The notes under the pieces are model-generated. The model did not search any database. It was not told the DNA's origin and saw nothing but the letters and a program-made list of their open reading frames with translations. A stretch of DNA of 64,000 bases from assembly GCA_964036295.1 (NCBI GenBank), contig OZ038463.1:3782001-3846000 (forward strand), in the 5' to 3' direction. The stretch comes from Plumapathes pennacea (Eukaryota; Cnidaria; Anthozoa; Antipatharia; Myriopathidae). The position numbers and the translations under genes were made by a program. Each line of letters begins with the position of its first letter. Position 1 is the stretch's first letter. Below, one piece after another: positions 18,301-21,300 of the stretch.

Positions 18301-21300
18301 CAGACGTGCGCGACATCCGAAACTTGCTCGGCGAAGAAGGAAAAGGAATCATAATCATAGCCAAGATCGAGAATCACGAGGGAGTGAAGAGGTTTAACGA
18401 GATACTAGAGGTAGTTGATGGCATCATGGTGGCAAGGGGAGACCTGGGTATAGAAATTCCCCCGGAAAAAGTGTTTTTGGCGCAGAAGATGATGATTGGT
18501 CGGTGCAACAAGGCGGGCAAACCAGTTATATGTGCAACTCAGGTAAAGTTCTTGTTTTTGTTCCCAAATAATCAATTCTCAAAGAGTTTGATACTTTCCT
18601 CACAGAATTTCCAAGGTTACACTGTCAACTCATTTTTTTCTGACTGTGCTTGTTATGCGGCTTCTGCTTACTCTTTCATTTCCAAAGGCAAATTTCTGTC
18701 AGTGTGGTGTGACCACTCAATTGAAAACTCTCAATGAGTACATTCTAATGTAAGTGTTCACTTCAACTCCTGAACTGTCAAATGAAACCTAAAAGTGTGA
18801 CGACTCACGGAAAGTTCTCAATGAGTACATTTTAATGGAAGTGTTCACTTCCAACTCCTAAACTGTCAATATGCTTTGCGCGCCCAGGGACTGACAGCGG
18901 CCATTTTCGTGTTTGTTTTTCTACGTTTTATCGCAAAATAAATCAGCACAAACTTAGAAAGGTTATTGAATGCGGTAAGTAGCGACTGTCAGATCGATCA
19001 GTCATAACGTGGGCGCCTCAGGAAAGTCGACTTTCGGATGTAAGTATAGATATGGGCGCGCAAAGCATCTACGGTGAGGTGTACGTCTCTCGAGTTCTCT
19101 CACACGAATAAACAGGTTTGTCAAGATAAAATCTTAACCAATCTAAACTTGTGTTTTTACAGATGTTGGAAAGTATGGTCCACAACCCTCGTCCCACACG
19201 TGCCGAGGCCTCTGACGTCGCTAACGCCATCTTGGATGGAGCAGACTGCGTTATGTTGTCAGGTACCCACTAGTGTTCACATCAGCCTGTTGCGGACGTA
19301 ACGCTACAGTATTTTATAAGAGATGCACCGAGACTGCGTTAGTGTTCAAACCAGGACTGTAATGAACGGCGTGAATGGGCTGCGGCATCCACATGCTCAT
19401 GTAACTGTGTCGGGCGTAAAGTTAGTCTACGTCGTTGTATCTTCATGTGATCTAGCCTGCGTAGCTGGCGGTCTTATTCGATGCGGTTAAACGGTGTTCA
19501 CGGGCGCCATTTTGTACTGATGGCAGAAGGGAGACTGAGGTCAAGTGACAAAATTACGGGGCGGGGGAGGGGGGTGGGGGCGGGGGAAAAGACCGCCTGC
19601 CCGAAGACTGTGGGTTTTCGATATCCGCCCACTTGTCACAGGCCAATCAGCAATGGGCTGTCAGTTGTCAAATTTGTTGACACCATCTGATACATGATAT
19701 GTTTTTTTCACAGCAAACTTCCCATGGCGATCTGATTTACTTACAAAACGAAAATACTGTATACTAAAATTACGAATCCAAAACGAAAGACATCATAAGT
19801 CGTTCGGGTCACATGAAAACGGATTTTGTTCCAGTCACATGGCTTCGGCAGTTCTTGCTTTTGTTCGTTTGTAAAATCACACCTTCGCCAACCCGCTGTG
19901 GTTTATCAAGACCCGACTACAGCTCGACAACAGGAAAGGGAAACGAATGAACGCTTTACGACTCGTACGAGATTCTCACAAGAGCAAAGGAGTGAGAGCG
20001 TTTTATCGCGGACTTACGGCGTCATGCATTAGAATATCGCAAACTGTCGTCCACTTCACAATCTATGAACACATCAAGGACGCTTTCTCGGCAAAGCAGT
20101 ACACCGACTGTGGCATATTGGTAAAACAGACGCGAAACCGTTTCCAGTTAACCTGCCCGTTTAAATCCTCCTTGGCAAGCACGAACGGAGTAAAAATCAG
20201 GCTTTTTCCAAAGCCAACGGCAAAATGGCGGCAACATCCTTGATAGACAACAAATCTTTTACGGCGGTTTCCTGTTCTATTTTCAGGACGATCTCACGGT
20301 CTCAACCTCTTAGATTTAACTTCTTCAAAGCTTCTTCCACAACAATATCGAACAAATCCGCCATCTCTTTGCGCGTTTCTTTCACGCCGCTCACTTGATT
20401 GACAGTTTATTATTCTCAGCCAATCAGAATGCTGCGTGCACTGGTGCACGCAGCCAGTCGAAAACCCACAGTCTTCGGGCAGGCGGTCTTTTTCCCCGCC
20501 CCCACCCCCCTCCCCCGCCCCGTAATTTTGTCACTTGACCTCAGTCTCCCTTCTACCATCAGTACAAAATGGCGCCCGTGAACACCGTTCAACCGCATCG
20601 AATGAGACCGCCAGCTACGCAGGCTACATGTGATCGTATCGACCGACTACTAAACGTAAAACTGGGTGTGGCATACACGTGCTTCGGTAGCTGTGTGGGG
20701 CGTATTTTGAACAAGGCTGCGATATGTCGTCATGTGATCTTATCGACCGACTGATAAACGCAAAGTTGGTGTGGAATACACGTGCTGAGGTAGCTGTGTC
20801 AGACGTAAAGTTAGTCTAATTGCAGCTGTTTCAAACAAGGCTGCGTTATATCGTCATGTGATCATATCGACCGACTGCTAAACGCAAACTGGGTGTGGCA
20901 TACATGTGCTGAGGTGCTGTGTCGGACGAAGACTGCTAGTCTTTGTCAGTAAATAGTGACTGCAAATTGTCATGGGTAATCATTAGTTAAAATATATTTT
21001 TGAAGCCAGGGTTGTGCTAAACGTGAAGCTAGCAAATATTCTGTATACTAGGTAAATCATTGGCTAAGAAACAAATCTTTTGACCAGCACTGCCAACTGT
21101 GAAATGGATATGGCATATACACATGCTATGATAGCTGTCTAATGTTGTCTGAAACACTCGTATCCATGCACAGACAGTCGTGCTTATCTTTTTCTTGCTT
21201 ATGCTTTCAGGTGAAACAGCGAAAGGTAGCTACCCAGCAAAGTCAGTTTCAATGATGCACAGGATTTGCCGAGAGGCCGAGGCGGCGATTTTTCACAAAC

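Follow-up and report, generated by a model that had tools for sequence, protein, structure and literature searches.

Multicopy elements carrying an SLC25A36-like gene fragment, probably derived from a two-gene DUF6589/RecQ transposon, in an anthozoan genome

The target duplications of Mutator-like elements (MULEs) measure 8 to 11 bp, usually 9, and that of Kolobok elements is the 4-bp TTAA. Capture of host gene fragments by animal transposons with terminal inverted repeats (TIRs) is documented in a 2021 survey of such Pack-TIRs, the available part of which gives 370 cases in 100 species (hAT and Tc/Mariner, 87%), only four multicopy Pack-TIRs in reference genomes in addition to the fly Ssk-FB4 family, and no Pack-MULE (PMC8277862). 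The multicopy case illustrated in that part of the survey involves three chromosomes; Ssk-FB4 has a 45-bp insertion at one breakpoint and a 2-bp microhomology at the other, and gap-filling or fork-switching routes are proposed for animal Pack-TIRs (PMC8277862). Two kinds of helicase-encoding transposon are also relevant here. AcademH elements are described, in the accessible sections of one report, as making 9- or 10-bp target duplications that are linked to their helicase (PMC10045372), and KolobokH elements encode a DDD/E transposase with a RecQ helicase downstream and, in the portion of the source available, are reported only from fungi (PMC9587614). For fungal helicase elements, the effect of the helicase on gene capture is called unknown in the accessible text of a further paper (PMC10799480).

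The DNA analysed here is a window of 64,000 nucleotides from contig OZ038463.1 of Plumapathes pennacea; positions within it are counted from its first letter, and positions elsewhere in the same assembly carry a contig designation (C1, C2 and so on). Inside a pyruvate-kinase intron, positions 19453-20626 of the window form a 1174-bp element that is very probably a Pack-TIR, non-autonomous, carrying a gene fragment and descended from a DNA transposon with two genes (Table 1). Its TIR arms are 97% complementary over 172 nt, and it is bordered on either side by the perfect 9-bp duplication CATGTGATC. Pyruvate-kinase motifs were located by motif search on the + strand at 16984, 18360-18504, 19196 and 21201, and their presence on both sides of the element (19196, 21201) places it in an intron. 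A sequence-only reading made beforehand had described a 1174-bp element with long TIRs and a perfect 9-bp duplication in this intron, all of which was confirmed, together with a plus-strand SLC25 carrier fragment inside it and a minus-strand RecQ-like sequence, which lies to the right of that fragment. The same reading had noted no transposase inside, and comparison of the element with one sequence of its parent transposon, described below, likewise gave no transposase-gene match past the start-codon region. An Rfam search of the element returned no match.

Table 1. Features of the window element and its borders (positions in the window).
Feature	Positions	Strand	Remarks
Left 9-bp target duplication CATGTGATC	19444..19452		
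Left TIR, from the parent's transposase side	19453..19621	+	97% to right arm
Parent subterminal part, ending just beyond the DUF6589 gene start codon (ATG 19724)	19622..19734	+	BLAST 90.8% up to 19721; rest via subfamily consensus
Filler at the left capture junction	19735..19776		Similar between subfamilies (consensus A 33 nt, consensus B 36 nt)
Captured SLC25A36-like carrier coding sequence	19777..20077	+	86% to C1:26141749
RecQ-like helicase belonging to the transposon, 5' coding part	20081..20364	-	Internal deletions relative to subfamily B
Leader, right TIR to RecQ start codon	20365..20457	-	Common to parent
Right TIR, from the parent's helicase side	20458..20626	-	97% to left arm
Right 9-bp target duplication CATGTGATC	20627..20635		

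The insertion site lies within a degenerate 104-124-bp tandem repeat (19381-19429 and 20627-20915) in which CATGTGATC recurs, and the duplication at the window copy alone is therefore weaker evidence; family copies elsewhere with 9-bp duplications settle the target duplication despite this repeat-rich flank. Two further observations were made in the window. A second + strand set of pyruvate-kinase exon motifs (61105-63500) neighbours the first set (16984-21201), so that the window probably contains two pyruvate-kinase gene copies, the first of which hosts the element. An isolated TIR-like end at 33583-33612 (TAGCCTGCGTAACTGGCGG..., one mismatch in 13 bases), for which no partner end was recognised, perhaps belongs to a related family.

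The 290-Mb assembly to which the window belongs was searched for the family defined by these ends. A TIR search scored 40 of 325 candidates; a 31-base pattern taken from the TIR, at most 3 mismatches being allowed, detected 371 ends (183 forward, 188 reverse), and the reversed-pattern control detected none. Among the loci examined, 35 paired elements were found, a count that takes in the parent and interrupted copies, and six further ends were unpaired. Perfect duplications of exactly 9 bp, not 8 or 10, flank 32 of the 35, while two others have one mismatch and the last (C7:10980504) matches over 8 bp; the duplications of different copies have no sequence in common. The genome search that the sequence-only reading had proposed thus did yield TIR copies with 9-bp duplications, and a different duplication length, which it had regarded as speaking against itself, did not occur among the paired elements.

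Listed individually were 100 of the 371 ends, giving 27 pairs: 12 measure 169-295 bp, 11 measure 1129-1283 bp and a single pair 795 bp, and the remaining three exceed these lengths. By their size, the 12 shortest are TIR-only miniature relatives, another non-autonomous branch. One of the 11 pairs of 1129-1283 bp, L080 (C1:29990396-29991647, 1252 bp), has the same TIRs as the window element and a perfect 9-bp duplication, GAACTTTCC; it was considered as a second capture and rejected, its interior being bounded by inverted repeats of its own and thus, by eye, a nested transposon. A copy of the subfamily B type defined below (C3:9577999-9583807) is interrupted by a nested retroelement, judged from its reading frames to be Ty3/gypsy-like. 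Six exact TIR ends in one orientation lie within 71 kb at C1:1817762-1888679, perhaps an array or a segmental duplication of element-bearing DNA.

A full-length parent was identified at C6:16679416-16686576, with 7161 bp, the same TIRs and the perfect 9-bp duplication GGCAGATTG on either side. It contains two convergent genes, one for a RecQ-like helicase (DEAD 5e-18, Helicase_C 3e-14) reading in from one end and one for a zf-AD/DUF6589 protein (DUF6589 7e-21; zf-AD 1e-5, just below Pfam's cut-off) from the other. Ranked by E-value, the top NCBIfam family of each helicase piece is recQ_fam, below its curated cut-off, and the C-terminal piece has 38 solved relatives, including WRN, RecQ1 and BLM. 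On the DUF6589 strand the frame changes at one ORF boundary (read by eye), for which reason this copy may be inactive or may have an intron at that point. At C2:23.326-23.328 Mb lies a further DUF6589/RecQ pair, 97-98% identical, with one stop in its RecQ frame. Positions 1-269 of the window element correspond to parent positions 7161-6891 at 90.8%, and its right-hand portions align with parent positions 597-1. At the transposase end the derivative retains about 280 bp, and at the helicase end up to about 600 bp; in place of the roughly 6.3 kb that separates these parts in the parent, it has a short filler and SLC25A36-like sequence of up to 345 bp.

From the right TIR inward, the RecQ piece of the window element is colinear with the parent, small gaps excepted, and on this comparison it comes from the 5' end of the helicase gene that belongs to the transposon, not from a host gene. 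Complete hit lists, which supersede a smaller hand-picked set (6 of 17 with RecQ, 5 convergent), comprised 40 DUF6589 hits at 36 loci and 46 RecQ hits at 41 loci. RecQ lies within 6 kb of 25 of the 36 DUF6589 loci and is convergent in all 25, compared with 0.06 expected under uniform placement. For 23 of these 25 loci, identity to the transposase piece used as query is just 26-52%, so that the DUF6589/RecQ partnership appears to be old; some of the pairs are recent copies of each other (three have one identity value), so that there are fewer than 25 independent cases. It is conceivable that RecQ is instead a whole captured host gene, in which case the parent would be an earlier Pack element and DUF6589 alone the transposon: cells have RecQ helicases, RecQ genes sit in KolobokH transposons too (accessible part of PMC9587614), and 11 of the 36 DUF6589 loci have no RecQ match within 6 kb. 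We consider this very unlikely given the always-convergent arrangement and the age of the partnership, and a very old acquisition of RecQ would be compatible with the reading of the family as a Pack-TIR.

Two subfamilies were distinguished. Two-ended copies of 1.1-1.4 kb, each within one locus, account for 29 of the 35 pairs (18 A, 11 B), with identities of 97.5% within A, 97.9% within B and 88% between the groups. On the subfamily consensus, the left junction lies just beyond the transposase start codon (ATGGCGAGCTG) and is followed by 33-36 bases of filler and then by SLC25; a search for the origin of the filler gave chance-level matches only. The subfamily B copy analysed has 345 nt of SLC25 sequence and about 600 bp of the RecQ end, joined at a changeover with a short, imperfect match, while subfamily A, which includes the window copy, is without about 50 nt of B's SLC25 stretch and without inner RecQ parts. 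Since the left junction and its filler are common to both subfamilies, a single SLC25 capture probably seeded the family now present at about 40 loci, and later deletions and two bursts would have followed that capture.

The SLC25 part of the window element is 86% identical to C1:26141749 and 85% to C1:26151653, which have uninterrupted frames of 328 and 363 codons with three Mito_carr repeats. The best named relatives of the 328-aa SLC25A36-like protein are in Nematostella (66%), Stylophora (64%) and Oculina (62%). The frame at 19890-20114 in the element retains a Mito_carr match (PF00153, 4.8e-16), and small indels break the SLC25 frame in the upstream part of 19777-20077. The SLC25 piece is the only host-derived part of the cargo, and on these similarities its donor is a host SLC25A36-like gene. 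Both nearest donor genes are intronless over the captured region, so that copying at the DNA level and at the RNA level would look alike. The assembly contains 48 SLC25 matches, of which five were assigned to SLC25 genes and 43 to elements, the latter representing 40 loci after merging; for five of these 40, whose sequence was not fetched, the assignment was made via TIR pairs (two) or via a neighbouring RecQ match (two on C12, one on C2). Between one SLC25-bearing copy and the donor gene the distance is 127 kb (post hoc P about 0.03), an observation on which no conclusion is based here.

Coding changes in the cargo were counted against the subfamily consensus. The SLC25 frame of subfamily A (189 nt) shows 9 synonymous and 27 nonsynonymous distinct changes (rate ratio 0.89), and that of subfamily B (144 nt) 5 and 33 (2.01). 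Indels occur in the tested stretch in 7 of 29 copies, while stop-making changes were absent from the two tested stretches in all 29, which is slightly against pure neutrality. On these small counts the cargo reads as evolving neutrally, with no clear sign of protein-level selection. A role of the SLC25 piece for element or host, for example in supplying antisense transcripts or small RNAs directed at SLC25 or in forming part of a protein, could be argued from its carriage at about 40 loci, from the tested frames being free of stop-making changes, and from the retention of both parental gene starts, through which a transcript from the right end would be antisense to SLC25; in view of the neutral-looking changes in both subfamilies, few as they are, and of the indels, such a role appears distinctly improbable.

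Least probable of the alternatives, and close to dismissed, is a Pack-MULE, that is, a Mutator-like element with both inner pieces captured from host genes: long TIRs, 9-bp duplications and MULE transposases at 11 places in the assembly speak for it, but the full-length partner encodes DUF6589 and RecQ proteins, none of its nine reading frames tested for domains matches a MULE, the RecQ piece runs inward from the TIR as in the parent, and the nine MULE places on contigs with TIR ends among the 100 of 371 listed are all at least 140 kb from such an end (the other two are on contigs with no listed end). The sequence-only reading had named the element Pack-MULE-type and proposed a search for an autonomous partner with a MULE transposase; the 7161-bp parent does not bear this out. 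Its claim that pieces of two host genes are carried stands for SLC25 and falls for RecQ, as the comparison with the parent shows; for RecQ only, then, is the interior part of a transposon protein, as that reading had allowed might count against it. What it had called an animal gene-shuffling transposon with a chimeric cargo is indeed an animal TIR transposon with an SLC25 piece, the cargo consisting of one host piece and a transposon remnant. Its suggestion to align the cargo with intact genes led to the SLC25 donor at 86%, and the intron comparison was uninformative with donors that are intronless there.

Position in the parent, acidic motifs conserved by eye and recurrence across the assembly suggest that the DUF6589 protein is likely a DDD/E transposase. 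In an alignment of 10 relatives, inspected by eye, (G/A)DNID is present in 8 of the 8 rows reaching it, HGDQL in 9 of 9 and a later E in 4 of 4. Structure prediction, run twice on DUF6589 relatives, gave models of low confidence (mean pLDDT 46 and 40), a search for relatives of solved structure found none, and no mention of DUF6589 was found in the open-licence literature searched. At C3:8573120 a MULE-transposase match lies about 2 kb from a DUF6589 match on the same strand (C3:8575448), with no RecQ match nearby.

Filler at one junction and a few matching bases at the other led us to propose a template switch. A break would arise inside a copy of the parent transposon, repair synthesis would switch template to the SLC25 gene and then back into the transposon, and the product, with both ends intact, would be mobilised in trans by parent-encoded proteins; one capture, subsequent deletions and then two bursts would give the present family. 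Such a course resembles the gap-filling or fork-switching routes put forward for animal Pack-TIRs (PMC8277862). That the RecQ helicase itself favours template switching is speculation. A wider proposal, in which DUF6589 is the DDD/E transposase of a two-gene lineage with a facing RecQ-like helicase, the helicase makes gap repair prone to template switching, the lineage is an inherent capturer of genes in animals and many RecQ-like copies in the assembly are transposon genes, is offered tentatively, and as a whole we regard it as rather unlikely.

The accessible part of the animal survey describes fragment-carrying TIR transposons as nearly all single copies (PMC8277862); in the present family a single capture has apparently multiplied to about 40 loci. 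One assembly contains the parent transposon, the gene that served as donor, the two junctions and both subfamilies descended from the capture, and gene capture is extended to a helicase-encoding transposon and to an anthozoan. With this family it can be tested directly whether a helicase encoded by a transposon promotes gene capture, and DUF6589 gains a concrete context. What anthozoan annotations list as RecQ-like and DUF6589 "genes" may belong to transposons.

In length, the duplications of this family (perfect 9 bp in 32 of the 35 paired elements) agree with those of Mutator-like elements, and at 9 bp without a fixed sequence they differ from the TTAA of Kolobok. The autonomous partner has DUF6589, zf-AD and helicase domains rather than a MULE transposase. 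Like plant Pack-MULEs, as far as these are described in the available part of the survey, the family carries a gene fragment between long TIRs with 9-bp duplications (PMC8277862); it differs in a parent without MULE transposase and in that one "captured" piece is transposon-derived. KolobokH, in the accessible sections of its source, resembles the present transposon in combining a DDD/E transposase, here a likely one, with a RecQ helicase, and differs in being reported only from fungi and in having the helicase downstream of the transposase, whereas the genes here are convergent (PMC9587614). Literature searches covering open-licence papers found no description of gene capture by AcademH-type or cnidarian elements. 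With AcademH, as the accessible parts of papers citing it describe it, the family has in common an encoded helicase and 9- or 10-bp duplications (PMC10045372, PMC10799480): the duplications are of 9 bp, the parent has GGCAGATTG twice, and its RecQ-like gene recurs as a pair at 25 of 36 DUF6589 loci. Animal Pack-TIRs are already known, and as in those of the survey's available part, the interior of a TIR transposon has been replaced by a host gene fragment, with filler at one breakpoint and microhomology at the other as in Ssk-FB4; the differences are the roughly 40 loci and the helicase-encoding transposon (PMC8277862). A host fragment lies between transposon ends, its host copy was identified at 86%, target duplications flank the family copies and the source transposon was identified. 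This is a real, well-formed family of gene-fragment-carrying transposons, for which a multicopy animal Pack-TIR of an AcademH-like transposon would be the best fit.
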